Source: a virus. From it: a stretch of DNA of 32,613 bases. Positions within the stretch are counted from its first letter, which is position 1; every line of letters starts with the position of its first letter. Below the pieces are notes generated by a model. That model saw only the letters and a program-made list of their open reading frames with translations, was not told the DNA's origin and ran no database searches. The stretch lies in IMG/VR virus record IMGVR_UViG_3300044630_003566, positions 1 through 32,613 of that record; one strand, given 5' to 3'. This document shows positions 2,070 to 20,692 of this stretch, piece by piece. A program made the position numbers and the translations under genes.

Positions 2070-3284
2070 ATGTCAAACAAAATTAATGTATTAGTACTTC
2101 CCAGTGACAAATCCGGAGTTGGCAAGTTTCGATCAGTCGATCCCCATATTCATTTACAAAATTTATACCCAAACGATTTTCATATCGATATTGATTATGA
2201 ACCCAAAATTAACGACTTTAATTTTTGGAAAAAATATCAGATAGTTCATGCCCATAGAAATATTGGGCAAAGTTACGAAAATACTCCACACTTAATTAGA
2301 ATGTTAAGACAAAATGGAATCATTGTAATCATTGATATTGATGATTATTGGTTACCAACTAAAGAACATCCAATTCATCAACTTATTGTTACAAACAAGA
2401 TTCATGAAAAAATTATTGCAAATATAAAAGAAGCGAGTTATGTCACAACAACAACCGAATTGTTTGCATCTGAAATCAAAAAGTTTAACCCAAATGTTGT
2501 AGTTTTTCCAAATGCTGTTGATCCCAACGACCCACAATTCAATGAGCCAACACAACCGTCAGAAAAAATTAGAGTTGGTTGGTTAGGTGGATCTTCTCAC
2601 TTACATGATTTAAAACTTATGGACGGTTTTGTTAATAAACTTAAACCAATTCAGAATAAACTACAATATTATCTTTGTGGGTTTGATGTAAGGGGAGTTG
2701 TAACTGAAATTAATCAAGAAACTGGTGAACAAAAACAAAGACCCATTCGACCTGATGAAACTGTTTGGGCAAGATATGAAGAATTATTCACAGATAACTA
2801 CAAAATCATTTCTGAAGATTATAAAAGTTTTTTGATGAAGTTTGAAGAAAAAGAGTTCTTAGAATCTCAAAACGAAAATTATGTAAGAGTATGGACAAGA
2901 CCAGTAAACTCTTATGCAAAAAATTATTCTAAGTTTGATATCTCGTTGGCACCGATCAAAAACCACATGTTTAATAGAATGAAATCTCAATTAAAAGTTA
3001 TTGAGGCTGGTTTTTATAAAAAAGCATTGATTGCGTCCCAAGTAGGACCTTACACTTTAGATCTTAAACACGCTTTAAATCAAGGTCAATTTACAAATGG
3101 AAACGCCCTTTTGGTTTCAGAAAATAATAACCATAGTGATTGGGCCAAAAACATTAAAAAATTAGTTGATAACCCGAACATGATCGAAGACTTGGGTAAT
3201 CAATTATATGAAACAGTGAAGGACAAATATAGTTTAGTTACTGTTTCGATCGAAAGAAGTCAATTTTACAAATCTATAATTTAA
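2070..3284 (+). CDS. GT-B glycosyltransferase (GT4-like)
   Basis: A 404-residue protein with the layout of GT-B retaining glycosyltransferases. The N-terminal Rossmann half includes IVHAHRNIG and an IIVIIDIDDYW strand. A linker strand FPNAVDP follows, then the C-terminal half opens with IRVGWLGGSSHLHDL. The donor-site region SQLKVIEAGFYKKALIAS (about residues 309-326) is the usual conserved Glu helix of GT4 enzymes. It would transfer a sugar from a nucleotide donor in the cytoplasm; donor and acceptor cannot be read from sequence. It opens the glycan block and is separated from the other glycan genes by an exonuclease and a dUTPase gene, suggesting the block grew by piecemeal insertion. Confidence 0.8.
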   Translation: MSNKINVLVLPSDKSGVGKFRSVDPHIHLQNLYPNDFHIDIDYEPKINDFNFWKKYQIVHAHRNIGQSYENTPHLIRMLRQNGIIVIIDIDDYWLPTKEHPIHQLIVTNKIHEKIIANIKEASYVTTTTELFASEIKKFNPNVVVFPNAVDPNDPQFNEPTQPSEKIRVGWLGGSSHLHDLKLMDGFVNKLKPIQNKLQYYLCGFDVRGVVTEINQETGEQKQRPIRPDETVWARYEELFTDNYKIISEDYKSFLMKFEEKEFLESQNENYVRVWTRPVNSYAKNYSKFDISLAPIKNHMFNRMKSQLKVIEAGFYKKALIASQVGPYTLDLKHALNQGQFTNGNALLVSENNNHSDWAKNIKKLVDNPNMIEDLGNQLYETVKDKYSLVTVSIERSQFYKSII

Positions 3285-3290
3285 TACTTT

Positions 3291-4010
3291 ATGATTACTA
3301 TTCCTATAACTAAAATTTTATTCCTTGACATTGAAACTGTTGGTATTACAAAAGATTTTGATACTTGTAAAGAAAGTTTCCCTAAACTTTCGAATCAGTT
3401 TGAAAATTATTATGATTGGTTCTTAAAGAGGTTTCCTGAAGATCAACTTGAGGGTAAGTCATTAGAAGAACAAAAAAACCATGTTTTTTCTACAAGGACT
3501 GCACTTGTTCCGGAGTTTGCAAAAATAATTTGTGTTTCCATGGCATTTGTTACTGATAAAGGTGAAATTAAACAACAAACTTTTGCAAATGATAATGAAC
3601 TTATCCTATTAGAAGATGTCCAAAAACTCTTGGAAAGATGTGGTAAATTAGATTTTTATATGTGTGGACATAATTTGAAAAACTTTGACATACCAATGTT
3701 AGCAAAGAGGATGATCATAAATGGTTTGAAACCACCATCAATTCTTCCTTCATTTGACACTAAACCATGGGAAGTTAAAGCCTTGGATACAAAAGAGATT
3801 TGGCAATATGGTGCTTACACCTCCATTGGTTCCCTGGATTTAATGTGTACATGTTTAGACATACCTACTTCTAAAGATGGTGAAATTTCTGGTGATCAAG
3901 TCCACTCGGCATATTGGAATGATAATAAGTTGACTGAAATATCAAAATATTGTGAACGAGATGTTGATGTATTGATTCAAACAATTAAAATTTTAAAAGA
4001 ACTACGTTGA
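3291..4010 (+). CDS. DEDDy-type 3'-5' exonuclease
   Basis: A 239-residue DnaQ-like nuclease. Exo I is LDIET with D13 and E15, exo II is GHNLKNFD with D133, and exo III is YCERD (Y220, D224), the Y-x3-D form that marks the DEDDy subgroup. All four metal-binding acids are present, so it should be active. Length and layout fit the stand-alone polymerase-B-like exonuclease domain, which phages use in DNA replication, repair or nucleotide recycling. It lies between a glycosyltransferase and dUTPase; its stop TGA shares a base with the dUTPase ATG, so the two nucleotide-metabolism genes are coupled. Confidence 0.85.
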   Translation: MITIPITKILFLDIETVGITKDFDTCKESFPKLSNQFENYYDWFLKRFPEDQLEGKSLEEQKNHVFSTRTALVPEFAKIICVSMAFVTDKGEIKQQTFANDNELILLEDVQKLLERCGKLDFYMCGHNLKNFDIPMLAKRMIINGLKPPSILPSFDTKPWEVKALDTKEIWQYGAYTSIGSLDLMCTCLDIPTSKDGEISGDQVHSAYWNDNKLTEISKYCERDVDVLIQTIKILKELR

Positions 4011-4600
4011 TGGATGAAAAAACAAAAGAATTACTAAACCAAGTAAAACATATTGAAGAAATTTTTGGTAAAGATTTTCAGGGATCTGAAAGTGAAATTA
4101 TAAATAAATTTGGTTTGTTTATCGAAGGTTTAGAAAGCGATGTAAAAAAAAATAATCCAACATTGGATTTAGAGTTTGTTCGAATTGATGGAGAAGCAAT
4201 TACTCCAACATACGCATACCCAAGTGATTCTGGTATGGACTTGTTCTCAACTCATGAAGAAGAAATCCAACCCTTGGAAAGAAAACTAATTGGTACTGGA
4301 TTGAAATTTAATATCCCTCAAAATTATGAGATCCAAATAAGGTCTAAAAGTGGATTGGCACTCAAACAGGGATTAATGGTGTTAAATTCACCTGGAACTG
4401 TAGATCAAGGATATTTAGGGGAAATCAAAGTGATATTATTTAACACCTCAAATCAAGTTGTTAAAATACAAAAAGGACAAAAAATTGCTCAAGCGGTCTT
4501 GACTCCAGTTGTTTCGGGTAAATGGGTAACACTCAAAGAAGTGGCATCTTTAGAAGAAAAAGATAGATCTGATAATGGTTTTGGTAGCACAGGCATATGA
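4010..4600 (+). CDS. dut: Trimeric dUTPase with N-terminal extension
   Basis: Hydrolyses dUTP to dUMP and pyrophosphate, keeping uracil out of phage DNA and feeding dTMP synthesis. All five motifs of the trimeric family are present in order: I SDSGMDLFS (72-80), II RSKSGLA (111-117), III GTVDQGYLGEI (129-139), IV GQKIAQAVL (156-164) and V RSDNGFGSTG (186-195). The catalytic Asp of motif III is D132. I start at the ATG at 4010, which overlaps the upstream TGA by one base, rather than the TTG one codon earlier. The protein is 196 residues; the usual core is about 140-150, so the first 50 residues are an acidic/basic helical extension of unknown role. The stop overlaps the next ATG (ATGA). Confidence 0.93.
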   Translation: MDEKTKELLNQVKHIEEIFGKDFQGSESEIINKFGLFIEGLESDVKKNNPTLDLEFVRIDGEAITPTYAYPSDSGMDLFSTHEEEIQPLERKLIGTGLKFNIPQNYEIQIRSKSGLALKQGLMVLNSPGTVDQGYLGEIKVILFNTSNQVVKIQKGQKIAQAVLTPVVSGKWVTLKEVASLEEKDRSDNGFGSTGI

Positions 4601-6108
4601 TCAGTATTATTTACTCAACACACAAAGACTCTGAGTACAATAACAAATTTAAACAACACTTATTACACACGGTTGGTGTTAAGGATGTTCAAATTTTAGA
4701 ATATGTCAATCATAATCAATATTCCTTATCAGAAGTTTATAATAGTGGAATAACTGAATCTATTTATGACATTGTTGTGTGTTGTCATAATGACATTAAA
4801 TTAGAAAAAAATTGGGGAAAAAAACTTTTAAGTGACTTTTCTAATAATCTGGAATTTGGTATAATTGGAAAAGCCGGATCATGTTATTTTCCCAAGTCCG
4901 GGGTTTATTGGGAAAAAATGAACCTAACAATGGTTGGTCAAGTATATCATCATCCACCAGGTCAAAACAAATGGTTAAGTAAATATTGTCCAAAATTTCC
5001 ATTTTTAATCCCCGTAGTTACAATTGATGGGTTATTTATTAGTTTTGATAAAACTAAAATTAAACATAATTTTGATGAGACAATTGGTAAGTTTCATTTC
5101 TATGATCATTTATTCTGTATCCCAAATTATATGGACGGAGTTAAAATTGGTGTGTCCTCTTCATTTGAGATTACACATGAATCTGTTGGTCAACCAAATC
5201 AAGAATTTTGGGAAAGCAAAGAAAAGTTTCTTGAAAAATGGAAACATGTTTTACCAATTGATTTAAAGCCTTCACACCCATATCTCAATGAAAATAATAA
5301 GTCAAAACAAATAAAAAACCAACCCAAAGTTGCCGTTATTATACCAACTAAAAATAATATAAATTTATTAATAAATTGTTTGAATTCTTTTTTCAAAAAT
5401 TGTGACCCAGATTATTTTGAAATTTTTATTGCAGATACAGGATCTTCTGATGACGAATTAAATGAAATAAAAAAGTATATCCAAAAAGAAAATAATATAA
5501 ATTTGTTATTATATGATTATTATAATTTCTCTAAAATTAACAATGATGTTGTTAAAAATCATTTATCTGATAAATTTGAGTATTTATTGTTCTGTAACAA
5601 TGACATAGTTTTATTGACTGATGTAATTTACAATTTGATTACTATTTTTAAAAACCATAAAAATGTTGGAACTGTTGGTTGTAGACTTCACTATGAGGAT
5701 AATACCTTACAACATCAGGGGATAACAATTTTTTTGAAACAAAATGTTAAACAAATATCTGTTGATCATTTTGGAAAAAATAGTTATTACAATTTTGATA
5801 CGACAACTAAACATGTTTTGGGTAATACTGCCGCATTAATGATGATTAGAAAAAACACATTTGAAAAAATTGGAGGTTTTGATGAATCATTAAGACATTG
5901 TTTCGAAGACGTTTTATTAAATTTAAAGTTGACGGTTTCAGGTTATAGTAATTATTATTCTCCTGACTCTGTTGCTTACCACCTTGAGTCTGCCTCAAGA
6001 GATATAAAAACAACAAATAATGAAATGATTCAAGATTACAATAATATATTGGTTCCATATATTAAAAATAATTTTGAAAAACTTAAAAAATTTGTATTAA
6101 TTAATTAA
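4597..6108 (+). CDS. Tandem two-domain GT-A glycosyltransferase
   Basis: A 503-residue protein with two GT-A-like domains. The N-terminal domain (1 to about 230) starts ISIIYSTHK, has LSEVYNSGI and a HND metal-site candidate at 64-66. The C-terminal domain (about 245-490) is a clear GT2: VAVIIPTKNNINLLINCLNSF, ADTGSSDD, NND at 334-336, then GNTAALMMIRKNTFEKIGGFDE and a Glu-Asp catalytic pair in HCFEDVLL. Two fused transferases often add successive or alternating sugars, as in polysaccharide synthases, but only the C-terminal domain is a strong match here. It starts in an ATGA overlap with dut. Confidence 0.82.
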   Translation: MISIIYSTHKDSEYNNKFKQHLLHTVGVKDVQILEYVNHNQYSLSEVYNSGITESIYDIVVCCHNDIKLEKNWGKKLLSDFSNNLEFGIIGKAGSCYFPKSGVYWEKMNLTMVGQVYHHPPGQNKWLSKYCPKFPFLIPVVTIDGLFISFDKTKIKHNFDETIGKFHFYDHLFCIPNYMDGVKIGVSSSFEITHESVGQPNQEFWESKEKFLEKWKHVLPIDLKPSHPYLNENNKSKQIKNQPKVAVIIPTKNNINLLINCLNSFFKNCDPDYFEIFIADTGSSDDELNEIKKYIQKENNINLLLYDYYNFSKINNDVVKNHLSDKFEYLLFCNNDIVLLTDVIYNLITIFKNHKNVGTVGCRLHYEDNTLQHQGITIFLKQNVKQISVDHFGKNSYYNFDTTTKHVLGNTAALMMIRKNTFEKIGGFDESLRHCFEDVLLNLKLTVSGYSNYYSPDSVAYHLESASRDIKTTNNEMIQDYNNILVPYIKNNFEKLKKFVLIN

Positions 6109-6119
6109 AAAAATATCGT

Positions 6120-6986
6120 ATGAAAATTTTAATCGGTTGTCTCTTATTTCGTGAATTTACTGGTTCCGAGATGTATGTGTTCGAACTTGCTAAAAACTTA
6201 CAAAAGTTAGGGTGTGATGTCACCATCACCTCACCTCATATTGGTGGACCACTAACAGATTTGGCCCTTAGTTTAGGAATAAAAGTTCACAATATCAAAG
6301 TTCCATTTATAAACAAAAATTACGATATTATTCACTCACAACATTATCCCGTAACTCAAACTTTACTCAAGTTATTTCCAAAAAATAAAATGATTTGTAC
6401 AATTCATTCTGAGGTAATTTCCCTAGAAAACCCAATTATTCACGAAAACATCAAAAAATACATCACAATCAGACCAGAAATTCAAAATCATATTATAAAA
6501 AACTTTTGGATTCCTGAAAATAAAACATGCGTGATTTACAATCCAATTGATACCAACAAGTTCAATATGAATGATACAACATCTGGTAATTATACATTAT
6601 TCGTTGGCACTATAGATTATTTGAGACAAAATACTATTAGAGATCTTGTAGATAAAACAAAGTCCGAAAACAAAGAATTATATTTAGTAGGAAAAAATCA
6701 TGCAAATTATTTGAATGAAATTTTATCTAATCACCATGTCAAACATTTCAACCAGACCTATGATGTGGAAAAATTTGTAAAAAATTGTGGTGAAACTGCT
6801 GGTATTCTTCTGGGTAGAACCACAATCGAAGGATGGTTATGCGGTAAACCTGGATGGATTTATGATATAGATTCAAACGGATCGATCAAAAATAAAACAC
6901 TACACCAAGTACCAAATAATTTAGAAATATTTAATTCAGAAATTGTTGCCCAACAAATAAAAGACGAATATTTAAAAATCTTGTAA
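6120..6986 (+). CDS. Short GT-B glycosyltransferase (GT4-like)
   Basis: A 288-residue GT-B enzyme. The N-terminus MKILIGCLLFREFTGSEMYV followed by ELAKNLQKLGCDVTITSP is the standard first Rossmann unit with a gly-rich acceptor loop. The linker strand VIYNPIDTNKF and the next strand YTLFVGTIDYLRQ mark the donor domain. The Glu near the usual EX7E site appears as TTIEGWLCGKPGWIYD. The length is about 80-100 residues below typical GT4 enzymes, mostly from a short C-terminal half. It directly abuts the wecB-like gene with no gap, so donor supply and transfer may be coupled, though the sugar it uses is not known. Confidence 0.75.
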   Translation: MKILIGCLLFREFTGSEMYVFELAKNLQKLGCDVTITSPHIGGPLTDLALSLGIKVHNIKVPFINKNYDIIHSQHYPVTQTLLKLFPKNKMICTIHSEVISLENPIIHENIKKYITIRPEIQNHIIKNFWIPENKTCVIYNPIDTNKFNMNDTTSGNYTLFVGTIDYLRQNTIRDLVDKTKSENKELYLVGKNHANYLNEILSNHHVKHFNQTYDVEKFVKNCGETAGILLGRTTIEGWLCGKPGWIYDIDSNGSIKNKTLHQVPNNLEIFNSEIVAQQIKDEYLKIL

Positions 6987-8000
6987 ATGAAAATATTAAT
7001 TTGTTTTGGAACAAGACCAGAATGGTTAAAAATAAAACCTTTATTAACCGTTTTTAATAAGAAAAATTATGATCTTCTTTTTACTGGTCAACATCAGGAC
7101 TTACTGACGGATATTGATTTTGATTATGAAATTAATATTTTTTCCAAAAATAATAGACTCGATGATATTTTAATCTCTTGTATGTCGAATTTCCCGAAAC
7201 AAAAGTATGACTATGTTTTAGTTCAGGGAGACACTGGATCTGCTTTGGGATGTGCTCTCGCGGCATATAATAGAAAAATTAAAATAATCCACTTAGAAGC
7301 GGGATTAAGAACTTATGATGATAAAAATCCTTATCCGGAAGAATCCTATAGACAACTTATTTCTAGAATTTCGGACATAAATTTGTGTCCAACTGAACTT
7401 TCACTAACAAATCTTAATAATGAGAAAGTTAAAGGTAAATCCTTTGTGGTCGGTAACACAGTTTTGGATAATCTTTATGAAACAAAAAAAAACTCAACAT
7501 ACGGAAACAAAGTTCTCATAACCTTACATAGAAGAGAAAATCACGAAATAATGGAAACCTGGTTCAAAACTTTAAATAATTTGAGTGAAAAATTTAGTAA
7601 CCTTGAGTTTATATTCCCAATTCATCCAAACCCAAATGTCAAAAAATTTGAAACGTTGTTAAGTGATAACATTAAAGTTATAGAACCTCTGGAACATAAA
7701 GAACTTGTGAATCTTTTATTAAATACAAAATTTGTAATTACTGATAGTGGTGGAATACAAGAAGAGTCGTCATTCTTGAATAAAAAGGTTATTGTATGTC
7801 GTAAAACAACAGAGAGGCCCGAGGGAATTGAAACCGGTCATATTCATTTATGCGAATCACCAGACCGACTAATTGAAATGGTTTACAAAATAGATTCAAA
7901 TTATTATATTGATAATGTGTGCCCCTACGGAGATGGTCAGTCTTCGATAAAAATTTTAAATATTTTAATAAATGATTACAGTAATATTGAACGGATATAA
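6987..8000 (+). CDS. wecB: UDP-GlcNAc 2-epimerase (non-hydrolysing)
   Basis: Interconverts UDP-GlcNAc and UDP-ManNAc, giving ManNAc-type donors for surface glycans. The 337-residue protein has the family landmarks in order: FGTRPEWLKIKPL at the start, QGDTGSALGCALAAY, HLEAGLRT, PYPEESYRQLIS, TLHRREN, FPIHPNP, and DSGGIQEES followed by RKTTERPEGIETG. These cover the UDP-binding loop and catalytic acids of WecB-type enzymes. The length is a little below the usual 370-380. No ManNAc dehydrogenase is visible, so the product may be used as UDP-ManNAc itself. It starts directly after the GT-B gene and its last 29 bases overlap the next GT. Confidence 0.9.
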   Translation: MKILICFGTRPEWLKIKPLLTVFNKKNYDLLFTGQHQDLLTDIDFDYEINIFSKNNRLDDILISCMSNFPKQKYDYVLVQGDTGSALGCALAAYNRKIKIIHLEAGLRTYDDKNPYPEESYRQLISRISDINLCPTELSLTNLNNEKVKGKSFVVGNTVLDNLYETKKNSTYGNKVLITLHRRENHEIMETWFKTLNNLSEKFSNLEFIFPIHPNPNVKKFETLLSDNIKVIEPLEHKELVNLLLNTKFVITDSGGIQEESSFLNKKVIVCRKTTERPEGIETGHIHLCESPDRLIEMVYKIDSNYYIDNVCPYGDGQSSIKILNILINDYSNIERI

Positions 8001-8697
8001 AAGATCTTCTCATTTTAACAACCAATTGAACGCAATTAGAAATCAAACAATGAAGCCTAGTCAGATTCTTTTTTGGCAAAACAAAGGTGAGGATTTTGAT
8101 AAAAGTCTAACAGAACAAACAATCCACGCTAGTTGTAATCATAATCTTGGTGTTTGGGCGAGATTTGCATTTGCACTCAACGCAAGGACAGAATACGTTT
8201 GTGTTTTTGATGATGACACAATTCCAGGAAAAAAATGGTTGGAAAATTGTTATAACACTATTCAAACCCATGATGGTCTATTAGGCACAATTGGAGTCAA
8301 GTTTCATGATTCTAAAAATTATGTAAAACATACAAGGGTTGGTTGGGACAAACCAAATGAAAATACTGAAGTAGTCGATATCGTTGGGCATTCTTGGTTT
8401 TTCAAAAGGGAAGATCTTTCAGTATTTTGGCGTGAGTTACCAGATATAACCCATAGTCCGATTGTCGGTGAAGACATGCATTTTTCGTACATGTTGCAAA
8501 AGTATACCAACAAAAAAACTTATGTCCCTCCACACCCAATTTTAGATTCTGAAATGTGGGGAAGTAACCCCAAATCTGCTTGGCAAATTGGTACTGACTC
8601 TGTTGCAATTTCTCGTAACCCATCAAACATGAATATAATGAACGATTGTTTTGTGAATTATGTCAATAAAGGTTTTAAATTGTTAAAAAATGGATAA
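7972..8697 (+). CDS. GT-A glycosyltransferase with DDD motif
   Basis: A 241-residue GT2-like enzyme. It begins MITVILNGYKRS, then AIRNQTMKPSQILFWQN (strand 2) and YVCVFDDDTIPGKKWLEN, where D80-D82 form the metal/nucleotide DXD site. VGHSWFFKRE and VGEDMHFSYML fit the acceptor-side strand and the late catalytic Asp region. The opening and DDD loop resemble exostosin-type as well as GT2 enzymes. The ATG lies 29 bases inside wecB; that start is supported because MITVILNGY is the expected first beta strand. Donor and acceptor unknown. Confidence 0.78.
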   Translation: MITVILNGYKRSSHFNNQLNAIRNQTMKPSQILFWQNKGEDFDKSLTEQTIHASCNHNLGVWARFAFALNARTEYVCVFDDDTIPGKKWLENCYNTIQTHDGLLGTIGVKFHDSKNYVKHTRVGWDKPNENTEVVDIVGHSWFFKREDLSVFWRELPDITHSPIVGEDMHFSYMLQKYTNKKTYVPPHPILDSEMWGSNPKSAWQIGTDSVAISRNPSNMNIMNDCFVNYVNKGFKLLKNG

Positions 8698-9409
8698 ATT
8701 TGATTCCGACTTTGATTTTTTTTGGGATAAAATAAATTCTAATGAAAATTTTACTTTTGCTCGATATGCAGATGGTGAAATATTGTTAATGAAAGGTCTG
8801 ACTGTTGGTTCAAACACTCAGGCATATAATGTAGATAAATGGTCAAGTGGGAACGGAATATCTAAAGTCGGAAAAGAACTTTTAAATTCCCTGAACCATC
8901 AGGAAGACAATTATTACTATGCAATTTCCTCAAAAACCGATAATCCAAGTGACTATAGTTTTTTAGTAAATAATATTAAAAACACCCAAAATTTAACATT
9001 TGTAAATCTTTGGATTAATAATAATTATAATAGATCAAAAGAAAAATACCAATCTTTGAAAAGACCGGTCAATATGATTTGCAACGAAAATGCAAAAATA
9101 GAAAATTTCCCCTTTCCGATTAAAAGTTTAACTTATTTTCCTAATGACTGTATAAATTTTTGGGAAAAAAACTCCGATAAATACTTGAGGGATCTCTATG
9201 AAAAGTTTTCCAATGTTGAAGACAATTTGTTTTTTATTTCTTGTGGTCCGGTTTCTGAAATAATAATTGATTATTTGTACAGAGCGTTCCCAAACAATAC
9301 TTATATAGATGTTGGGTCATCAATTGATGAATTTGTTCACGGAAAAAAAACTAGGCCATATATGTTCGATAATACGATATATAGTAAAATGAAATCTTAT
9401 TTCGATTAA
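8690..9409 (+). CDS. GT-D fold glycosyltransferase (DUF1792-like)
   Basis: A 239-residue protein that fits the rare GT-D fold first described for a streptococcal DUF1792 enzyme. The N-terminal FTFARYADGEILLMKG holds the DXE motif (D28, E30) that replaces the DXD of GT-A enzymes. The C-terminal SCGPVSEIIIDYLYR plus TYIDVGSSIDEF is the conserved second half of this fold. In the known case it adds glucose during glycosylation of a serine-rich protein, which is relevant to a virion-protein glycosylation idea. The sugar here is unknown. It overlaps the previous GT by 8 bases and abuts the next gene directly. Confidence 0.75.
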   Translation: MDKFDSDFDFFWDKINSNENFTFARYADGEILLMKGLTVGSNTQAYNVDKWSSGNGISKVGKELLNSLNHQEDNYYYAISSKTDNPSDYSFLVNNIKNTQNLTFVNLWINNNYNRSKEKYQSLKRPVNMICNENAKIENFPFPIKSLTYFPNDCINFWEKNSDKYLRDLYEKFSNVEDNLFFISCGPVSEIIIDYLYRAFPNNTYIDVGSSIDEFVHGKKTRPYMFDNTIYSKMKSYFD

Positions 9410-12909: not shown

Positions 12910-12913
12910 TATT

Positions 12914-13630
12914 ATGAATGAAATTGCAATAATTATACAAGGACCATTGATTATAGACGATTTATATCAAAAACAAGTAAATATCTTACCGAAACAACTT
13001 GAAAGTTTTTGCGATTTCCCAAAACAAATAATATTTTCAACTTGGGAACATTATAAACAAGAAAATTTACCTGTCGATGAATTTAATTTTATATTCAATG
13101 AACTACCCCCAGAACATGGACAGTTAAATTTATGGTTACAAAAAAAATCAACGATTGAAGGTTTAAAAAGGGCAAAAGATTTAAATTTCAAATACGCACT
13201 GAAACTGAGATCAGATATGGTATTGTCAAACCCTGGAAGATTTTTTTCATTAATGAACTTGGAAAAGTTAAATTTTTTGTGTTGGAATCATCATCAATCT
13301 TATGTAGGTTTACCTGGTTACTTGACCGATTTTATTATGTTTGGAGAAATAGATGAGATGATAAAACTGTGGGAAATTGATGAGGATTTTGCAAATGGTC
13401 CAGAGATTATGATGACAGAAAATTTAATTAAAAATTGTAATAGTGATATTGAGTATTTTTTAAATAAATTAAGTGAGGATTGCGACTTGTTTTGGGTCAA
13501 AAATCAATTTAATTTTTCAATTTTTCCATTGAATAAACCTAAACCCACGGTTTGTAACAAACCTTGGTATGTTTTTTCAGAAACAAAGGAATATCTTAAT
13601 AAAAATTATTTAAACTGTTTTAATCGATAA
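12914..13630 (+). CDS. WavE-like glycosyltransferase, paralogue 2
   Basis: A 238-residue paralogue of the product at 9410. The ATG at 12914 follows the upstream stop by four bases and places EIAIIIQGP at the N-terminus as in the other copy; the in-frame ATG at 12845 lies inside the GDPD-like gene and would add 23 unrelated residues. Shared motifs in order: IIQGP, STW, GQLNLWLQKKSTIEG, LKLRSDM (R99-D101), and LSEDCDLFWVKN. It has about 40 more residues, partly at the C-terminus. WavE-family proteins belong to LPS core synthesis and are probable transferases. The distance from paralogue 1 (four genes) suggests an old duplication or separate gain. Confidence 0.68.
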   Translation: MNEIAIIIQGPLIIDDLYQKQVNILPKQLESFCDFPKQIIFSTWEHYKQENLPVDEFNFIFNELPPEHGQLNLWLQKKSTIEGLKRAKDLNFKYALKLRSDMVLSNPGRFFSLMNLEKLNFLCWNHHQSYVGLPGYLTDFIMFGEIDEMIKLWEIDEDFANGPEIMMTENLIKNCNSDIEYFLNKLSEDCDLFWVKNQFNFSIFPLNKPKPTVCNKPWYVFSETKEYLNKNYLNCFNR

Positions 13631-13632
13631 AA

Positions 13633-14334
13633 ATGATTCCTCAAATTTTGTATACAAATAAAAATTGTGAAGATGTATGGCAAATTTTTTATGACCAAAA
13701 TAAAAAATTCTATAACGGTGAACTTTATGTCATAACCGACAAAGATGAGTTTCTTGATGTTGATCAAAACAAAATTTATACATATAAAAACTCCGAACCA
13801 TATTGGCAAGTTTGGGTAAGTGCTCTTGAAAAATTTGGTGTGGAAAATTTTATTTATCTCCAAGAAGATTTTATTTTATATGATTATGTTGATGAAAAAA
13901 AAATTATCGAACTTCAAAATGTTTTGAATTCGTCGGATTATTCATTTGTACGACTTATAAAGTCTGGTAACCTTAACAATAAAAAAATTGAAAATAACTT
14001 GTTTGAAATAGAATCGAACAATCAAGATATTTTTTCTATGCAACCAACAATTTGGAAAACTAAAGATTATTCTAAATTAATGTCTGGGGTTAAAGAAATA
14101 AAATGGTTAGAAAATTATAAATATAGAGAATTTATGGTTGATAAAAATATGAAAGGATTGTATTATTATAATGAAGAAAAAAAAAGAGGTCTTAATCATT
14201 ATGATAGTTCTATCTATCCATATATCGCAACAGCATTAGTGAGAGGTAAGTGGAATTTAAGTGAATATAATTTTGAGTTAAAACCACTTCTAGAAAAATA
14301 TAAAATTGAAATTAATTTAAGAGGAATATTTTAA
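13633..14334 (+). CDS. Possible GT-A-like glycosyltransferase
   Basis: A 233-residue protein with MIPQILYTN at the start, a GELYVITD strand, and FIYLQEDFILYDYVD, where E78-D79 occupy the place of a DXD site. SMQPTIWKTKDY resembles the acceptor-side strand of small GT-A enzymes. The rest is Lys/Asn/Tyr-rich, as in its neighbours. There is no close family match that I can name, so the call rests on fold-like layout and on position between a WavE-like gene and an FkbM methyltransferase. It may instead be an uncharacterised protein of the glycan block. Confidence 0.5.
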   Translation: MIPQILYTNKNCEDVWQIFYDQNKKFYNGELYVITDKDEFLDVDQNKIYTYKNSEPYWQVWVSALEKFGVENFIYLQEDFILYDYVDEKKIIELQNVLNSSDYSFVRLIKSGNLNNKKIENNLFEIESNNQDIFSMQPTIWKTKDYSKLMSGVKEIKWLENYKYREFMVDKNMKGLYYYNEEKKRGLNHYDSSIYPYIATALVRGKWNLSEYNFELKPLLEKYKIEINLRGIF

Positions 14335-14335
14335 A

Positions 14336-14947
14336 ATGTTAATAGATTTAAAACACGTTCAAAAAAAGTATAACTTGAATATAAATGGGGTGATTCATGT
14401 TGGTGCTCATTTTGGGGAAGAACACGAAACTTATTTAGATATGGGTATAGATAAAATAGTCTATTTTGAACCAGTAAATAAAACTTTTAAAGTCCTTGAA
14501 GAAAGAATAAAAGACTTTCCGTTGTTTAATTGTGCGTTAGGTTCAACTGAAATGACAACAACAATGTTTATTGAGGACGAAGACAAGTTTGGATGTTCGT
14601 CAATTCTGGAACCTAGTGACAACTATATCGGACATGCGTTGTTTTCAGAAAAACAAATTGTGCAGATCAAGACTTTGGATTCATTTGAATTTTCAGATTT
14701 TAATTTTTTAAATATTGATGTTCAAGGTTATGAATTAGAGGTATTAAAAGGATCAAAAGAAACTTTAAATAATATTGATTATATTATGTGTGAAGTTCAT
14801 CGTAATGTAAAAGAAAAAAATTTGGACTATATTAATTCACCATTGATAGAGGATATTAATAACTTTTTGAGTGACTTCGGATTCGTTTTATGTGAACAAA
14901 ATTGGGCGGGCATAAGTTGGGGTGATGCATTTTATATAAAAAAATAG
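14336..14947 (+). CDS. FkbM-family methyltransferase
   Basis: A 203-residue SAM-dependent methyltransferase of the FkbM type, which O-methylates sugars or polyketides. GVIHVGAHFGEE (18-29) is the SAM-binding glycine loop. IVYFEPV carries the acidic residue that binds the SAM ribose. LNIDVQGYELEVLKG is the family hallmark. The length is typical of the core domain. Such enzymes are frequent in O-antigen, capsule and phage glycan loci and usually cap or decorate a sugar. It starts one base after the previous stop and is followed two bases later by a second methyltransferase. Confidence 0.85.
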   Translation: MLIDLKHVQKKYNLNINGVIHVGAHFGEEHETYLDMGIDKIVYFEPVNKTFKVLEERIKDFPLFNCALGSTEMTTTMFIEDEDKFGCSSILEPSDNYIGHALFSEKQIVQIKTLDSFEFSDFNFLNIDVQGYELEVLKGSKETLNNIDYIMCEVHRNVKEKNLDYINSPLIEDINNFLSDFGFVLCEQNWAGISWGDAFYIKK

Positions 14948-14949
14948 AT

Positions 14950-15441
14950 ATGATAGAAATAGTAAATTTTAATGGTAAGACTTATCCCATGTTTCAAACA
15001 AAAGGATTTGCATCAAAATATTGTTTTCCTTTTGCAAAGGAAGTCTGTACAGGCACTGGATATGATATTGGATGCATGAAAGAAGAATGGTCTTTACCTG
15101 GATCAATACCGATAGATCTTTCTTTTGATGATGATTATCATGCAAACAACTTACCTGAAGGTGAAGTTGATTACATATTTAGTTCTCATTGTTTAGAACA
15201 CATAAATGATTGGGTGGGAACTCTAAATTACTGGGACACTAAAATTAAAAATGGTGGAGTTATTTTTTTGTACCTACCAGATTACTCCCAAGAATATTGG
15301 AGACCTTGGAATAACAGGAAACATTTTAATATACTCAAACCTGAGTATCTGATGGATTATTTCAAAAACAAAAATTATAGAAAAATATTTGTTTCTGGAA
15401 TCGATCTGTATAACAGTTTTATGGTAATGGTTGAAAAATGA
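14950..15441 (+). CDS. Class I SAM-dependent methyltransferase
   Basis: A 163-residue protein with YDIGC as a short SAM motif I, IPIDL with the ribose-binding Asp, DYIFSSHCLEHI as motif IV, and GGVIFLYLPDY as motif VI. The family is the Methyltransf_11-like group often seen in polysaccharide loci. The N-terminal 35 residues are atypical, and the protein is short, lacking much of the last strands. It probably acts on a sugar or glycan together with the FkbM gene just upstream. It ends in an ATGA overlap with the next gene. Confidence 0.75.
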   Translation: MIEIVNFNGKTYPMFQTKGFASKYCFPFAKEVCTGTGYDIGCMKEEWSLPGSIPIDLSFDDDYHANNLPEGEVDYIFSSHCLEHINDWVGTLNYWDTKIKNGGVIFLYLPDYSQEYWRPWNNRKHFNILKPEYLMDYFKNKNYRKIFVSGIDLYNSFMVMVEK

Positions 15442-16175
15442 AAAAAGTATTGATTCATCAACCATACAAGTATGGGGACTTCATCAATTTAATACCTATG
15501 GCTCAAAAATTAAAAAATTTGGGTTATCAGGTTGTGTTCCCACACTCTAGACATACTCAAGATCTTGTGGAATATTTGGAAGGTATTGAAACCTTTGAAA
15601 TAGGTCCTACCGATATCTCAACTAGTAAGAAATATTGCCTAGAAAACGATGCTATTTTAGTTGATTGTCAATTTTCTGATAATTACAATAGTTTATGTAC
15701 AGTACATGGCGGTAATTTATTTATAGAAGAAATTAAATACTATGTTGCGGAAGATATTCTAAAGTGTGGTTTGAAATATGAAGAAAAATATAATCTAGTT
15801 TGGAATAGAAATTATGAGAGGGAGGAAAAATTGAAAAAAATTTTGAAAATTGGTGATAATGAAAAATACAGTATTTCTCATCTCGTGGGTGATAATGGTC
15901 GTTTTGGAAAAATTCCAGATGAGTTTACAAGTACAAAAATTATTGAGGTGAAGAGAATAAATGGTTTTTCTTTGTTCGATTGGTTTCCAATTATAATGAA
16001 TGCTGAAAACATATTTACAATTCAAAGTTCCGTTCAATGTTTTGTAGATTGTATTAAAAAACAACTAAAACATAAAAACTTTTTTTTACTAAACGACTCT
16101 GTGGAAAAAGATCGTCTTTTGGTACCGGCATATGACTGGAACACATCGTATTTTGTAAATAAAAGATTAAGATAA
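15438..16175 (+). CDS. GT9-like (heptosyltransferase-like) glycosyltransferase
   Basis: A 245-residue protein that opens with KVLIHQPYKYGDFINLIPMAQKL, close to the start of GT9 enzymes (a strand, then GD and a helix starting with P). The C-terminal half has SLFDWFPIIMNAENIFTIQSS, which matches the GT9 donor-site helix and Thr/Ser motif, and then VQCFVDCIKK. It is about 100 residues shorter than heptosyltransferases, with little between the halves. I infer a GT-B transferase with an unknown donor. It overlaps the methyltransferase by 4 bases and precedes the epimerase by 4 bases. Confidence 0.62.
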   Translation: MKKVLIHQPYKYGDFINLIPMAQKLKNLGYQVVFPHSRHTQDLVEYLEGIETFEIGPTDISTSKKYCLENDAILVDCQFSDNYNSLCTVHGGNLFIEEIKYYVAEDILKCGLKYEEKYNLVWNRNYEREEKLKKILKIGDNEKYSISHLVGDNGRFGKIPDEFTSTKIIEVKRINGFSLFDWFPIIMNAENIFTIQSSVQCFVDCIKKQLKHKNFFLLNDSVEKDRLLVPAYDWNTSYFVNKRLR

Positions 16176-16179
16176 TGAT

Positions 16180-17220
16180 ATGAAAAAAATTTTAATACTA
16201 GGTGGCGGTGGATTTATTGGTGGTCATTTAGCAAAAAAATTACACCAACAGGGAAATTTTGTTAGAGTTGTTGATTTAAAACAACATGAATATTTTAATC
16301 AAAAAGAATTTTGTGGAGAATTTATCCAAGGTGACTTAAGAGATCCAAACTTCGTCTCAGTTGTCATGTTTGGACCAAATCAAAATTCTATTGAAGATCA
16401 AGAAAATTCATTTGATGAGGTGTATCAACTTGCTGCGGACATGGGTGGTGCCGGATATATCTTCACCGGAGAAAACGATGCGAATGTCATGCATAATTCT
16501 GCAACGATAAATCTAAATGTTGCGTATTATGCTTCAAAATTTAACGTTAAAAAAATATTTTATTCTTCTTCCGCATGTATGTATCCTGAACACAATCAAT
16601 TGGATCCCAATAACCCAAATTGTGAAGAATCGTCTGCATATCCGGCAAACCCAGATAGTGAATATGGATGGGAAAAACTATTTAGTGAAAGACTTTATTT
16701 TGCATTTAATAGAAATTATGGTCTTAATGTTAGGGTCGCTCGGTTCCATAACATTTTTGGTCCATATGGAACGTGGACTGGAGGTAAAGAGAAGGCACCT
16801 GCTGCAATGTGTAGAAAAGTTTCTGAGTGTAATGAGTCTGATGAAATAGAAGTTTGGGGGGATGGTAGTCAAACTAGGTCTTTCCTATATATTGATGATT
16901 GTTTGAATTCTATAGAGAAGATGATGAACAGTGACTTTATGGGTCCAGTTAATATTGGTTCTGATGAAATGGTTACAATCAATGAACTTGCCAAAATGGC
17001 AATCGAAATTTCTAATAAAAATTTAAAAATCAAAAATATCACGGGTGAGGAATTTTTAGATAAGTATGGATTTAAATGTCCAATAGGTGTTATGGGAAGA
17101 AATTCTGACAACACCCTTTTTGAACGTATGATTTCAGAAACAAATTATAATTCTTTATATGATGGTATGCTTAAAACATACCAATGGATTAATAATAACG
17201 TAAACAAATTAAATGAATAG
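16180..17220 (+). CDS. gme: GDP-mannose 3,5-epimerase-like enzyme
   Basis: A 346-residue short-chain dehydrogenase-type epimerase. The NAD site is GGGGFIGG (8-15). LAADMGGAGYIF, SSACMYPE, SEYGWEKL (YxxxK: Y162, K166), FHNIFGPYGTWTGG and KEKAPAA follow the order and wording of plant GDP-mannose 3,5-epimerase. C133 and K205 sit where the plant enzyme has its two epimerising residues (Cys145 and Lys217), with the same 72-residue spacing. The enzyme would turn GDP-D-mannose into GDP-L-galactose and/or GDP-L-gulose. GDP-mannose synthesis genes are not in the window, so the host may supply it. Its last 8 bases overlap the PhoH-like gene. Confidence 0.88.
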   Translation: MKKILILGGGGFIGGHLAKKLHQQGNFVRVVDLKQHEYFNQKEFCGEFIQGDLRDPNFVSVVMFGPNQNSIEDQENSFDEVYQLAADMGGAGYIFTGENDANVMHNSATINLNVAYYASKFNVKKIFYSSSACMYPEHNQLDPNNPNCEESSAYPANPDSEYGWEKLFSERLYFAFNRNYGLNVRVARFHNIFGPYGTWTGGKEKAPAAMCRKVSECNESDEIEVWGDGSQTRSFLYIDDCLNSIEKMMNSDFMGPVNIGSDEMVTINELAKMAIEISNKNLKIKNITGEEFLDKYGFKCPIGVMGRNSDNTLFERMISETNYNSLYDGMLKTYQWINNNVNKLNE

Positions 17221-17941
17221 AAGAAAGCCAACACAAAATGATGATACAGTCAAACCTTTTACCAAAAAAGATTTGATAAACTCAATTGTCAAAAAAAAAT
17301 CCAAAAATAAATTTTTGACAAACAATCAAAAAGAATATTATGATTCTTTGATCCAAAACCAAATAACTATTTGTTCCGGACCTGCTGGAGTGGGTAAAAG
17401 TTATGTCGCAATGAAAGCGGCAATCGATTTATTGGTTGACCCCAATAATTCTTATGAAAAAATTATTATTGTAAGACCAGCAGTTGAGGCGGAAGAAAAG
17501 TTAGGGGCTTTACCAGGAAATTTAGAAGAAAAACTAGATCCTTATATTTTTCCCTCTTATTATTTGTTGAATAAAATTATTGGTAAGGAATCAAGAGAAA
17601 AATTAAAGGAACATGAAATAATAGAAGTATTTGCTTTGGCGTATATGAGAGGTATGAATATTGATAATTCAATTTTGATTTTTGAGGAAGCCCAAAACTC
17701 AACACCTAATCAGATGAAACTACTTCTTACTAGAATTGGATTTAATAGTAAATTTTTTATATCTGGAGATCTCGAACAAACCGATCGATACAAAGACATC
17801 CGTCATTCTGGTCTTTATGACGCGATTACCAAATTCAATTTTTTAGATGATATAGGTATATTTGAATTTGGTCAAAATGATGTTGTTAGAAACCCACTTA
17901 TTACAAAAATTTTAAGAAAATATGATGAGGATAGGAATTGA
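17213..17941 (+). CDS. phoH: PhoH-like ATPase
   Basis: A 242-residue P-loop ATPase of the PhoH family, common in phages. The Walker A loop is GPAGVGKS (56-63), Walker B is ILIFEEAQN (154-162), and SGDLEQTD (184-191) is the sensor-like motif. IIIVRPAVEAEEKLGALPG is the characteristic stretch after the first domain. Role in phage is unclear; RNA metabolism and phosphate stress links have been suggested, and bacterial PhoH2 is an RNA helicase/nuclease fusion. The first 35 residues are a basic extension. It interrupts the glycan block with the HAD-like and small genes that follow. Confidence 0.92.
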   Translation: MNRRKPTQNDDTVKPFTKKDLINSIVKKKSKNKFLTNNQKEYYDSLIQNQITICSGPAGVGKSYVAMKAAIDLLVDPNNSYEKIIIVRPAVEAEEKLGALPGNLEEKLDPYIFPSYYLLNKIIGKESREKLKEHEIIEVFALAYMRGMNIDNSILIFEEAQNSTPNQMKLLLTRIGFNSKFFISGDLEQTDRYKDIRHSGLYDAITKFNFLDDIGIFEFGQNDVVRNPLITKILRKYDEDRN

Positions 17942-18575
17942 AATTAATGGTGTTCTTCGAAATACTTTTGAAAAGATCAAACATGTTTACCAAAAAAATT
18001 TAATTGACTCTCAAACTATTGAGTCACAACCTACGTACAATATTGACATATCGGGGGATACTCAAGATTTAATTACTAATGAAGATTTCAAATATGAAAT
18101 ATTAAGTGAAGAAGAATCTTTCGATTTAGAAAAAATGTATAAGTTTCAAAATAAAGAAGAACTTTATTCATTTTTATATGAAGAATATACAATGGAAGTT
18201 TTTGGACATGCTCCATCAACAGAAATGAACACGTTTAATGTCTTAAACGAATTTTATTTGGAGTTTAGAGACAATTATGATATATCAATTGTTTCTAACG
18301 AAATAGGAAAATCAAAACCTTCATCCCTTTTTTTCTTATCCAAATTCGGAATGTTGATAGAAAAAATCTTTTTTTACAGTGAAATTACAAAAAAAACCAT
18401 GTGGGACTCAATTGATGTTTTACTTACTGCGAATCCATACTTATTATTAGAAAGACCAGAAAATAAAATTGTTATAAAGTATGTTACAAATTATAACAAA
18501 GATATCCCTTCTGATTATGAAATAACTTCATTATCAGAACTAAAAGAAATAATTAAAAATATAAAAAATGTTTGA
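17925..18575 (+). CDS. HAD-like phage protein with degenerate catalytic motif
   Basis: A 216-residue protein that resembles a widespread phage HAD-superfamily group. Two ATG codons are adjacent; I prefer the second at 17925 because it gives MRIGIEINGVLR. In an active HAD enzyme the first motif is DxDG(V/T)(L/V); here it is EINGVL, so the nucleophile Asp is Glu and the second Asp is Asn. FGHAPSTEMNTFNVLNEFY and ISIVSNEIGKSKPSSLFFLSKFG keep motifs II and III, including the Ser and Lys. MWDSIDVLLTANPYLL replaces motif IV. It is therefore likely a non-hydrolytic HAD. The 17-base overlap with phoH suggests co-translation. Confidence 0.72.
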   Translation: MRIGIEINGVLRNTFEKIKHVYQKNLIDSQTIESQPTYNIDISGDTQDLITNEDFKYEILSEEESFDLEKMYKFQNKEELYSFLYEEYTMEVFGHAPSTEMNTFNVLNEFYLEFRDNYDISIVSNEIGKSKPSSLFFLSKFGMLIEKIFFYSEITKKTMWDSIDVLLTANPYLLLERPENKIVIKYVTNYNKDIPSDYEITSLSELKEIIKNIKNV

Positions 18576-18822
18576 AATTTTAGGTGAAAATTATTACATT
18601 GATTTGGTAAAAATTAATGATTCCGTCACATTCAACGACTTGAGTGGCGAAACACAAATTGCGGTAGTTAAATATGAAACAATTAAATTGATGGTAGAAT
18701 TGGTATGTAGTGAGGTGGAAAATATCGATGAAAAAATGAGAATGAAAAGTACGGAACTTTCTATTCCTTTTAAGTTGGCATTTAACACTCTTTTAATGCA
18801 TAAAATAATAAATAAATTATAA
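18568..18822 (+). CDS. Small hypothetical protein
   Basis: An 84-residue protein of unknown function, overlapping the HAD-like gene by 8 bases and ending three bases before the next GT. It is acidic in the middle (CSEVENIDEKMRMK) with hydrophobic segments on either side and no Cys or His pattern. There is no signal peptide. Its linkage to the phoH and HAD-like genes suggests one functional set of three genes set into the glycan block. Confidence 0.6.
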   Translation: MFEILGENYYIDLVKINDSVTFNDLSGETQIAVVKYETIKLMVELVCSEVENIDEKMRMKSTELSIPFKLAFNTLLMHKIINKL

Positions 18823-18825
18823 TAT

Positions 18826-19884
18826 ATGAACAGTGAACAAATTCAAAAATTAGAAAAATCCATTAGTAATATGGAAGAAAAAAGGGCTAGGATTTATTTC
18901 TTAGTACAAGACACAAAAGGTAATGCTAAAGCATCCGTGAGGTACATTTACCAAATGGCATACACATTATTCGAGAGTGGTTACAATTCGATTATTCTTC
19001 ATGAAAAACCCGAATACTCCGGTGTTTCGGATTGGTTAGATGAAAAATATATGACAATGCCTCATAATTCAATTGAGGGTACTAATCTAGAAATTTCCCC
19101 GGAAGATTTAATTATTATTCCTGAAATCTATGGATTCGTTATGGAACAAATAACTAAGTTACCATGTGGTAAAATTGTACTATGTCAAGCATACGATCAC
19201 GTTTATGAAACTTTACAACCGGGTCAAACTTGGTCCCAGTTAGGTTTCTTTAAATGTATTACAACATCAGAAAAACAAAAAGAATATCTTGAAACAATGA
19301 TGAGAAATGTTTCCTATGAAGTTATTCATCCATTTATTTCAGATTCGTTTCAAAAAAACCCTTTACCCCCAAAAACAATTATTTCAATCTATACAAGAGA
19401 TCATAGAAATACAACAAATTTTATTAAAATGTTTTACAGTAAATTTCCTCAATATAGATGGATTACATTTAGGGATATGAGAGGTCTTTCTGAATTAGAA
19501 TTTGCACAAGGGTTGAAAGATAGTTTTTGTTCAGTATGGATTGATTCCCCAAGTGCATTTGGTACTTTTCCACTTGAATCTATGAAAATGGGTGTACCTG
19601 TTATTGGGTTAACTCCTAGCATGGTTCCTGAGTGGATGAAAGAAGAAAATGGTATTTGGATTAATAATCAAAACTTGTTGTTGGATGTCCTTGCCGACTT
19701 TATTCAAAACTGGTTAGAGGACAATATTAATCCAGATCTTTATGATCAAATGTCTCAAACGGTAGAACCTTACTCTAGTGAAGAAACTTTCAAAACTAGT
19801 GTCTTATCTTTGTTTGAAAAAATGATGGTAACTAGAATTGAAAACTTTAAAAATCAACTAACTAAATTTGAAACAGTAGAATAA
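18826..19884 (+). CDS. GT-B glycosyltransferase (GT4-like)
   Basis: A 352-residue GT-B enzyme. After a 20-residue helical leader, RIYFLVQDTKGNAKASVRYI opens the acceptor half. VIHPFISDSF is the linker and TIISIYTRDHRNTTNFI opens the donor half. The signature is WIDSPSAFGTFPLESMKMGVPVIGL, with the Glu helix and GVPVI that position the donor sugar nucleotide in GT4 and related enzymes; it is followed by MVPEWMKEENGIWI. This is the clearest GT4 donor site in the window. It comes after the phoH trio and is next to the GT2 gene at 19886. Confidence 0.82.
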   Translation: MNSEQIQKLEKSISNMEEKRARIYFLVQDTKGNAKASVRYIYQMAYTLFESGYNSIILHEKPEYSGVSDWLDEKYMTMPHNSIEGTNLEISPEDLIIIPEIYGFVMEQITKLPCGKIVLCQAYDHVYETLQPGQTWSQLGFFKCITTSEKQKEYLETMMRNVSYEVIHPFISDSFQKNPLPPKTIISIYTRDHRNTTNFIKMFYSKFPQYRWITFRDMRGLSELEFAQGLKDSFCSVWIDSPSAFGTFPLESMKMGVPVIGLTPSMVPEWMKEENGIWINNQNLLLDVLADFIQNWLEDNINPDLYDQMSQTVEPYSSEETFKTSVLSLFEKMMVTRIENFKNQLTKFETVE

Positions 19885-19885
19885 T

Positions 19886-20692
19886 ATGAAAAATAATAAC
19901 ACAATTTCGGTAATTTTACCAATTAAATCTTCAATGACTGGGTTTTTTGAAGATTATTTTAAAAAATGTATTGAGTCAATCAAAATTCAAAAAGTACCTT
20001 TTGATGAGGTAATTATCGTTCACACTGATGAAACGGCACTTGTGGAATTTTTGGATTCTTATGATTTTGGTGATTTGCAAACTAAACGATTCGTTTGGAC
20101 TGAAGAGGCAAATTTTTGCGAACAAGTAAATTATGGAGTCAAAAATTCAACATCAAAATGGGTTTCCATTTTAGAATTCGATGATGAGTACTCAAATATT
20201 TGGTCTAAAAATGTAAAAGAATATATGAACCATTATCCAGAAGTCCAAGCATTCCTCCCAATAGTGGTTGATGTTGATGAAAAAGGAGTTTTTGTAGGGT
20301 TTACAAATGAGGCATGTTTTGCCGCAAACATTACACAAGAACTTGGTGTGTTAACTAATGAAGTTTTACAGACATATCAAAACTTTCAAATTTCAGGAAT
20401 GGTTATTCAGAAAGAAATGTATGAAAAATATGGTAAACTAAAGTCTAACATAAAACTTACTTTTGGTTATGAATTCTTTTTGAGAATGACACAAAATTCA
20501 GTCAACTTCATGACAGTTCCGAGAATAGGATATAAGCACACAAATTTCAGAAACGGTTCTCTTTTCTGGAATTACAAAAATGGTACTGAAAAATTATATG
20601 AAGACGAAGTTAGGTTTTGGATTGATTCTGCAAAAAAAGAATATTTCTTTACAGAACAAAGAGATATAAATTACGAACCTCAAGAAATTTAA
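19886..20692 (+). CDS. GT2-family glycosyltransferase
   Basis: A 268-residue GT-A enzyme. ISVILPIKSSMTGFFEDYFKKCI is the first strand-helix unit, DEVIIVHTDE the second strand, and WVSILEFDDEYSNIW carries the DDE metal site (99-101). SGMVIQKEMYEKYGKLKSNIKLTFGYEFFLRM matches the acceptor strand and the late catalytic region of GT2 enzymes. The product is probably cytoplasmic. It is the last glycan gene; its stop shares a base with the start of the late sigma factor (TAATG). Confidence 0.8.
   Translation: MKNNNTISVILPIKSSMTGFFEDYFKKCIESIKIQKVPFDEVIIVHTDETALVEFLDSYDFGDLQTKRFVWTEEANFCEQVNYGVKNSTSKWVSILEFDDEYSNIWSKNVKEYMNHYPEVQAFLPIVVDVDEKGVFVGFTNEACFAANITQELGVLTNEVLQTYQNFQISGMVIQKEMYEKYGKLKSNIKLTFGYEFFLRMTQNSVNFMTVPRIGYKHTNFRNGSLFWNYKNGTEKLYEDEVRFWIDSAKKEYFFTEQRDINYEPQEI

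Follow-up and report, generated by a model that had tools for sequence, protein, structure and literature searches.

Clusters of glycan-synthesis genes are already known from T4-like phages (PMC3037559, PMC7029224). The T4-like cyanophages P-SSM2 and S-SSM7 carry large ones, one of them in P-SSM2 near phoH (PMC3037559), and the host recognition cluster of pelagimyophages is a hypervariable, glycosyltransferase-rich island (PMC7029224). Here we describe such a locus in a viral stretch of 32,613 bases (the window), which is the whole of IMG/VR record IMGVR_UViG_3300044630_003566. As in the T4-like lipopolysaccharide (LPS) and glycan islands, a cluster of glycan-synthesis genes, within positions 2070–20692, occupies a plastic region of a T4-like genome. 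The cyanophages differ in belonging to another phage group with other hosts, and the available excerpts report no exchange between near-identical strains (PMC3037559). The pelagimyophage island is described as lying between VrlC and gp14 together with tail fiber genes, whereas the variable genes here lie between open reading frame (ORF) o9 and the PhoH gene o25, and no fiber gene was seen among them (PMC7029224). Papers on two freshwater groups, moraphages and bS21 phages, give core glycosyltransferases (GTs) and the context of the bS21 gene, respectively; neither describes a fixed, exchangeable glycan slot in its excerpted text (PMC12619734, PMC9723584), and the moraphage authors note variable islands whose content they leave for later work (PMC12619734). 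Relative to these excerpts, the new elements are a fixed slot between core genes, exchange of whole cassettes between near-identical phages, the lack of membrane genes in the sampled versions, and a virus-enriched gene pair, o15–o18.

A longer record of 187,384 bases, G001, holds the window at positions 11668–44280 with 99.997% identity. Two sister contigs from two other metagenomes, G002 and G003, are about 99% identical to G001 upstream and 98–99% identical downstream, and neither has a nucleotide match to window positions 6864–16172; immediately beyond the two borders, identity is 98.5–100%. Computed in 200-base steps, identity to G002 was 98.5–100% up to o10, 92–95% in o10, at background inside, 82–90% in o24, and 97–100% from PhoH on; from this profile we take the exchanged unit to be o10–o24, with o10 and o24 as its homologous edges. 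Only o10, o21 (46% identity), o23 (25%), and o24 have relatives in the sister cassette. An assembly artifact was judged unlikely, since two contigs carry each cassette version and the alternative version in G002 and G003, which come from two metagenomes, agrees at 99.9% identity; the two contigs with the version of the window may have a common source.

Mapping the window proteins one by one onto about 160 related loci placed this exchange in a wider setting. Genes o6–o9 and o25–o37 are present across the lineage; of o10–o24, almost everything occurred in this virus alone within that sample. Between o9 and PhoH lie 79 bp to about 9.5 kb in relatives, as measured within a 10-kb fetch that longer slots escape, and 11.1 kb here. 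Some relatives thus have a near-empty slot (79 bp), and others hold different glycan genes. A sample of 27 slots yielded 186 ORFs in 109 clusters (35% identity, 60% coverage). With one member per cluster scanned against Pfam, the 25 commonest of 76 families listed, and overlapping counts for related families, the commonest were FkbM methyltransferases (12), epimerases (8), and GT2 glycosyltransferases (8), followed by other methyltransferases, GDP-mannose dehydratase-type enzymes (6), and hexapeptide (acyl)transferases (5), and then by WbqC, GT11, GT25, sulfotransferases, and CTP-transferases. That the cassette genes are so variable, and that the slot can be empty, would also be expected if the cassette were mostly passenger DNA, or unrelated cargo genes without a joint product; cyanophage LPS clusters were once proposed as stuffer DNA, according to the excerpted source (PMC3037559). 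We consider this very unlikely, in view of the predominance of glycan-type families across the sample, the intact and overlapping reading frames, the persistence of the o15–o18 pair across many viral contigs, and the high transcription of an FkbM methyltransferase gene, which ranked in the top 100 of bS21-phage genes in lake metatranscriptomes, as the excerpts of that study state (PMC9723584).

The initial annotation had treated positions 2070–20692 as one large glycan-synthesis block. Its observation that all genes there lie on the + strand, overlapping or a few bases apart, was borne out, and glycan genes are indeed abundant. The comparison with related phages instead resolved the span into a fixed slot with an exchanged cassette and a conserved scaffold that carries four lineage-core GTs, o6, o9, o28, and o29 (about 62–72% median identity), mixed with the non-glycan or unassigned genes o7, o8, o25, o26, and o27; the idea of a single glycan operon was dropped on this basis. 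Phages with an empty or near-empty slot retain o6, and indeed all four core GTs wherever the locus extends far enough. Relatives of o28 were found in 190 viral stretches, the best 80 of the 190 at 62% identity or more. Around twelve GTs had been proposed for the block. Eight of these (o6, o9, o10, o12, o14, o19, o28, and o29) are supported by profile or homology and o13 weakly, whereas o16, o20, and o23 found no such support. Coordinates and assignments are collected in Table 1.

Table 1. Features of the glycan locus and its surroundings (positions are those of the window).
Feature	Assignment	Position	Strand	Basis
o6	core GT-B glycosyltransferase, left scaffold	2070..3284	+	phrog_7162 5.7e-45; Glyco_trans_1_4 2e-4; median 72%
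o7	3'-5' exonuclease, non-glycan	3291..4010	+	PF10108 4e-13; median 68%
o8	dUTPase, non-glycan	4007..4600	+	PF00692 8e-24; conserved
o9	core tandem GT2, left slot border	4597..6108	+	PF13712 2e-21, PF00535 5e-16; median 64%
o10–o24	exchangeable glycan cassette	6120..17220 (about 6.2–17.2 kb)	+	unrelated DNA in sisters G002, G003
o10	GT4-type glycosyltransferase, left edge of exchanged segment	6120..6986	+	PF13439 2.6e-14
o11	non-hydrolyzing UDP-GlcNAc 2-epimerase (UDP-ManNAc supply)	6987..8000	+	TIGR00236 wecB 259 bits vs. cut-off 210
o12	GT2 glycosyltransferase	7972..8697	+	PF00535 6e-8
o13	GT-D-like glycosyltransferase	8690..9409	+	DGE motif invariant in 7 sequences
o14	WavE-like glycosyltransferase	9410..9997	+	38% identical to o19; homologue L256:5212-5808 vs. 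WavE 0.003
o15	HAD phosphatase/phosphomutase-like + sugar nucleotidyltransferase fusion	9997..11370	+	HAD_2 4e-29, NTP_transferase 2e-11, phrog_3980 3e-77
o16	possible GT	11370..12038	+	
o17	CTP-transferase (glycerol-phosphate or ethanolamine-phosphate type)	12035..12466	+	PF01467 4e-19
o18	short GDPD-like protein	12463..12909	+	HR, EN, ExD, GHD invariant
o19	WavE-like glycosyltransferase	12845..13630 (start probably near 12914)	+	PF07507 6e-11
o20	possible GT	13633..14334	+	28–34% relatives in other phages and Balneolaceae; no family match
o21	FkbM methyltransferase	14336..14947	+	PF05050 3e-19
o22	SAM methyltransferase	14950..15441	+	PF13489 8e-10
o23	GT9-like by eye only	15438..16175	+	no family match; distant 25% relative in sister cassette
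o24	GDP-mannose 3,5-epimerase family, right edge of exchanged segment	16180..17220	+	2c59 1e-81
o25	PhoH, right slot border	17213..17941	+	PF02562 6e-64
o26	conserved protein	17922..18575	+	in 156 loci; no family match
o28	core GT-B glycosyltransferase	18826..19884	+	PF00534 2e-4, below curated cut-off
o29	core GT2 glycosyltransferase	19886..20692	+	PF00535 1e-8; median 62%
o30	gp55-like late sigma factor, closes gene run	20692..21438	+	phrog_234 late sigma 5e-4
GTATTTATA	late-promoter-like motif ahead of o31, first on + strand of window	21442..21450	+	
o42	T4-like major head protein	30488..32350	-	phrog_138 1e-66; 75–83% identity in related contigs

Within the cassette, the four sugar- or polyol-activating enzymes claimed earlier (o11, o15, o17, and o24) each gained a profile or structure match, and the two methyltransferases (o21 and o22) match Pfam profiles. 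The match of o24 to the plant-type GDP-mannose 3,5-epimerase 2c59 spans its full length, and it contains the stretches SSACMYPE and GGKEKAPAA, which we take to carry the active-site Cys and Lys of that enzyme. The CTP-transferase o17 matched 3elb (3e-25) and 1coz TagD (2e-20) in the PDB and scored under the TagD equivalog cut-off. Further phage loci and a Balneolaceae metagenome-assembled genome (MAG) encode relatives of o12 at 46–66% identity. For o13, the GT-D assignment is suggested by the invariant DGE motif, by its best PDB profile match (GalT1 4phr/4pfx, E 0.03), and by a homologue that reached E 0.004 and 17.4 bits against the GT-D family PF08759, under the family cut-off of 27. Searches with o16 in Pfam, NCBIfam, PHROG, and the PDB gave no match, PDB searches with o20 and o23 returned nothing usable, and single-sequence structure predictions of o16 and o20 (pLDDT about 41) were not used. 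No profile supported the GT9-like call for o23.

Two genes of the cassette form a pair: o15, whose HAD domain is of the beta-phosphoglucomutase type, and o18, which the first reading of the sequence had overlooked and which bears a GDPD catalytic signature. The best profile match of o18 is the GDPD 7e0v (E 0.003, about 50 residues), and the protein is not long enough to form the complete fold. Of 80 viral loci, 67 have o18 near o15, and 71 of 80 viral copies of o18 have an o15-type nucleotidyltransferase no more than 2.5 kb away. Peptide-pattern searches with o15 gave 244 confirmed matches in viral contigs versus 4 full-length ones in 84,980 genomes, which is to be read as a tendency and not as a ratio because the collections differ in size and redundancy. 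Co-occurrence of o15 (phrog_3980) and o18 (phrog_34507) was also seen in many aquatic viral contigs and in a few bacterial or archaeal MAGs (L191–L194, L200–L372). Among the cellular relatives, a single contig of the Balneolaceae MAG carries relatives of o11, o12, o13, o15, o18, and o20, and a gammaproteobacterial MAG has the pair close to a flippase-like (Wzx-like) membrane protein with 13 segments. Given this enzyme content and these relatives, the cassette resembles a bacterial surface-glycan locus minus its membrane genes.

The resemblance extends to architecture, since bacterial Wzx/Wzy loci for O-antigen or capsule likewise keep interchangeable donor and transferase genes at a fixed locus; they differ in having a flippase, a polymerase, and an initiating transferase, none of which was found in the phage cassettes and records searched. 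A flippase or ligase just outside the window, the finding that the initial annotation had named as contrary to its reading, did not turn up in the 187-kb contig or in related loci. A hydrophobicity scan of G001 gave no ORF with at least four hydrophobic segments, our measure of a polytopic membrane protein, and none of the 186 cassette proteins from the 27 slots was polytopic by the same measure. The initiating sugar transferase and flippase families PF02397 and PF01943 were found in 0 of 15 records, with controls working; for ABC exporters and the remaining flippase families, coverage came only from the hydrophobicity scan, whose positive control also worked, as it found Wzx- and Wzy-like proteins beside bacterial relatives of o15–o18. 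In the related loci 1 of 3831 ORFs had at least four such segments. This protein (L080:14634-16565, 643 amino acids, four segments) is as large as o32, a protein of the structural region, and we did not count it as a flippase.

The missing membrane genes had been read as favoring cytoplasmic assembly on a protein, and their absence survived these wider tests. A change of the host surface, which the initial annotation had also proposed, is nevertheless compatible with it, because the phage could deliver substrates to the host's own flippase. In the cytoplasm, the enzymes would then lengthen or exchange the sugars of the host's lipid-linked O-antigen or capsule precursors, the host's flippase and ligase would export them, and superinfection or re-adsorption would be blocked. 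The likeness of the gene content to a surface-polysaccharide locus of bacteria from which the membrane genes are missing, relatives in the Balneolaceae and gammaproteobacterial MAGs included, speaks for this explanation, which in the excerpted text is also the one favored by the pelagimyophage authors for their own phages (PMC7029224). Three points make us regard it as rather unlikely: no export, polymerase, or initiating gene occurs in the 27 slots or 15 records, the four core GTs are retained where the slot is empty, and a host flippase would have to handle a great variety of glycans, which is demanding.

A possible acceptor lies next to the block. To its left in G001, on the opposite strand, are g1_002 (1774 amino acids), the Thr/Pro-rich g1_001 (452 amino acids), and g1_000, a collagen-like protein of 1347 amino acids up to the contig end with 291 triplets of the Gly-[Thr/Ser]-X type. 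In several relatives, too, g1_002- and g1_001-like proteins occupy this divergent position; three of these relatives also encode adjacent or nearby Gly-Thr/Ser repeat proteins, with as many as 872 triplets in G009. The sister strains share this fiber operon and the rest of the upstream genes at about 99% identity, and the cassette is thus exchanged independently of all these genes. A second, smaller GT locus, at G001 70247-74023 (L172), adjoins another Gly-Thr-Ser repeat protein, g1_078 (69277-70032); its products are an RgpF-like protein, a GT2-type protein, and an 806-amino-acid protein that combines two GT2 domains with a rhamnosyltransferase-like part.

The slot, its exchange, its gene families, the missing membrane genes, and the adjacency of the fiber operon are features of the DNA itself; for the acceptor, the order in which the enzymes act, and the role we infer a two-tier system, to which we assign a probability of roughly one half. 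In a first tier, the core GTs o6, o9, o28, and o29, which the lineage carries even where the slot is empty, would start a common glycan. In a second, the cassette would supply unusual donors (UDP-ManNAc, probably GDP-L-galactose or a similar epimer, and CDP-polyol or CDP-ethanolamine) and the product of o15–o18, and further glycosyltransferases and methyl caps would finish a strain-specific glycan. The glycan would be built in the cytoplasm on virion proteins, with the neighboring late collagen-like fiber operon as the leading acceptor candidate, and recombination in the flanking genes would swap the cassette whole, changing the outer glycan and leaving the rest of the phage as it was. The role might be glycotype switching against receptors, grazers, or competing phages. 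More tentatively, the locus could be a glycotype locus akin to the bacterial O-antigen locus, in which slot exchange between near-identical strains switches the oligosaccharide displayed on the collagen-like fibers and o15–o18 make an undescribed, mainly viral nucleotide-activated building block. A functional parallel comes from mimivirus, where a viral enzyme glucosylates collagen-like proteins and the fiber glycans derive partly from a nine-gene cluster (PMC4691112). Clustered virus-encoded donor synthesis and GTs, together with collagen-like proteins, are common to both, and the mimivirus glycan is on the virion (PMC4691112); mimivirus is, however, a giant virus of eukaryotes, no common ancestry is claimed, and the acceptor in our phage is a proposed one.

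Several observations weigh against the two-tier proposal. The adjacency that points to the fibers is circumstantial, Thr/Ser-rich repeats are common in phage fibers, no oligosaccharide-to-protein transferase was recognized, and G001 is incomplete (187 kb in a group reaching about 300 kb). Timing is a further difficulty. The motif RTATTTATA occurs in the window at 21442 (+), 26987 (+), and 30186 (-). In G001, 43 of 73 NTATTTATA sites lie within 120 bases upstream of a same-strand start, versus 8.6% by coverage, mostly 11–30 bases ahead of it. Among relatives, RTATTTATA precedes o31 in 37 of 80, o35 in 48 of 75, and o40 in 11 of 12 distinct upstream stretches, and the listed sites have no obvious second conserved box. 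Judging by the genes that follow it, mostly structural ones, the motif may serve as the late promoter in this group of phages. It stands ahead of g1_002 and g1_001, the first two genes of the divergent operon, and was found ahead of o6–o9 and o25–o29 in 0 of 435 distinct upstream stretches. Since the motif is lacking there and the gp55-like sigma gene o30 ends the run, expression of the glycan block probably falls in the early or middle phase. Transcription before the late virion genes would fit modification of the host surface or of DNA at least equally well.

Modification of DNA would mean that the core GTs add a sugar to a hydroxymethylated base and that the cassette builds this sugar up into diverse oligosaccharides as a barrier to restriction enzymes. 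Besides the lack of the late motif, the position of the core GTs among dUTPase, exonuclease, PhoH, and sigma genes agrees with this, and work by Pyle from 2024, as cited in PMC12619734, reportedly describes virus GTs that hypermodify DNA with diverse glycans. The Asn of thymidylate synthase becomes Asp in dCMP hydroxymethylase, and the thymidylate-synthase homologues of G001, G007, G008/G009, G011, and G014 retain the Asn, which speaks against hydroxymethylcytosine and not against hydroxymethyluracil, as a dUMP hydroxymethylase would retain it too. No block protein matched the T4 DNA glucosyltransferase families in Pfam, and the T4-type set of dCMP hydroxymethylase with alpha- and beta-DNA glucosyltransferases was not found in the incomplete G001; a Tet/JBP search gave no match, its controls likewise remaining unmatched. 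Overall we consider DNA glycosylation distinctly unlikely. G012 carries at 31500-32291 (L288) a divergent thymidylate-synthase homologue of about 280 amino acids without the usual PFN motif, which may be another pyrimidine-modifying enzyme.

The core genes also place the phage. The head protein o42 has its nearest relatives in an isolate phage collection at below 46% identity, and neither o28 nor o35 had a match there; relatives of PhoH and o28, by comparison, are encoded by hundreds of viral stretches. The set of core GTs, dUTPase, PhoH, and sigma factor (o6, o9, o28, o29, o8, o25, and o30) is conserved in about 30–160 related loci. In G001 the head protein (42158-44017) and portal- and terminase-sized genes up to 52022 lie on the - strand, and a bS21-like ORF on the + strand sits between and opposite them (assigned by eye, except for the head protein), which reproduces the grouping of head, portal, and terminase genes with an opposite-strand bS21 gene of bS21 phages and moraphages. 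G001 further carries proteins with signal peptides, which we take to be of the Bacteroidota type, along with an FTPNNDGVNDLF stretch. According to the excerpted papers, the opposite-strand bS21 arrangement occurs in phages whose predicted hosts are freshwater Bacteroidetes (PMC9723584), the published moraphage core includes four glycosyltransferase orthogroups (PMC12619734), and, as here, a core of T4-like head protein, sigma factor, dUTPase, and PhoH is found in freshwater phages of up to about 300 kb (PMC12619734, PMC9723584). G001 is thus probably a bS21/moraphage-like jumbo phage, a placement by gene features against the published description of those genomes and orthogroups, and its predicted host is probably a member of the Bacteroidota. 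At about 84–145 kb, G001 also encodes many small genes with a common N-terminal motif like MKKIIRLTESDLVRIVKRVIKE or MNLQESIRRILKE, a large family of the group. In the window, o38 (28153-28668), an HNH-type endonuclease-like gene by eye, is present in G003 as well and absent from G002, and is thus probably a mobile insertion.

If the two-tier proposal is right, these phages would vary a sugar coat by cassette exchange with their fibers unchanged, which would amount to a kind of serotype switching of the virion itself. The o15–o18 pair would then point to an undescribed, virus-enriched donor pathway, and the core GTs of a widespread freshwater phage group, one without close isolates in the searched collection, would gain a testable product.

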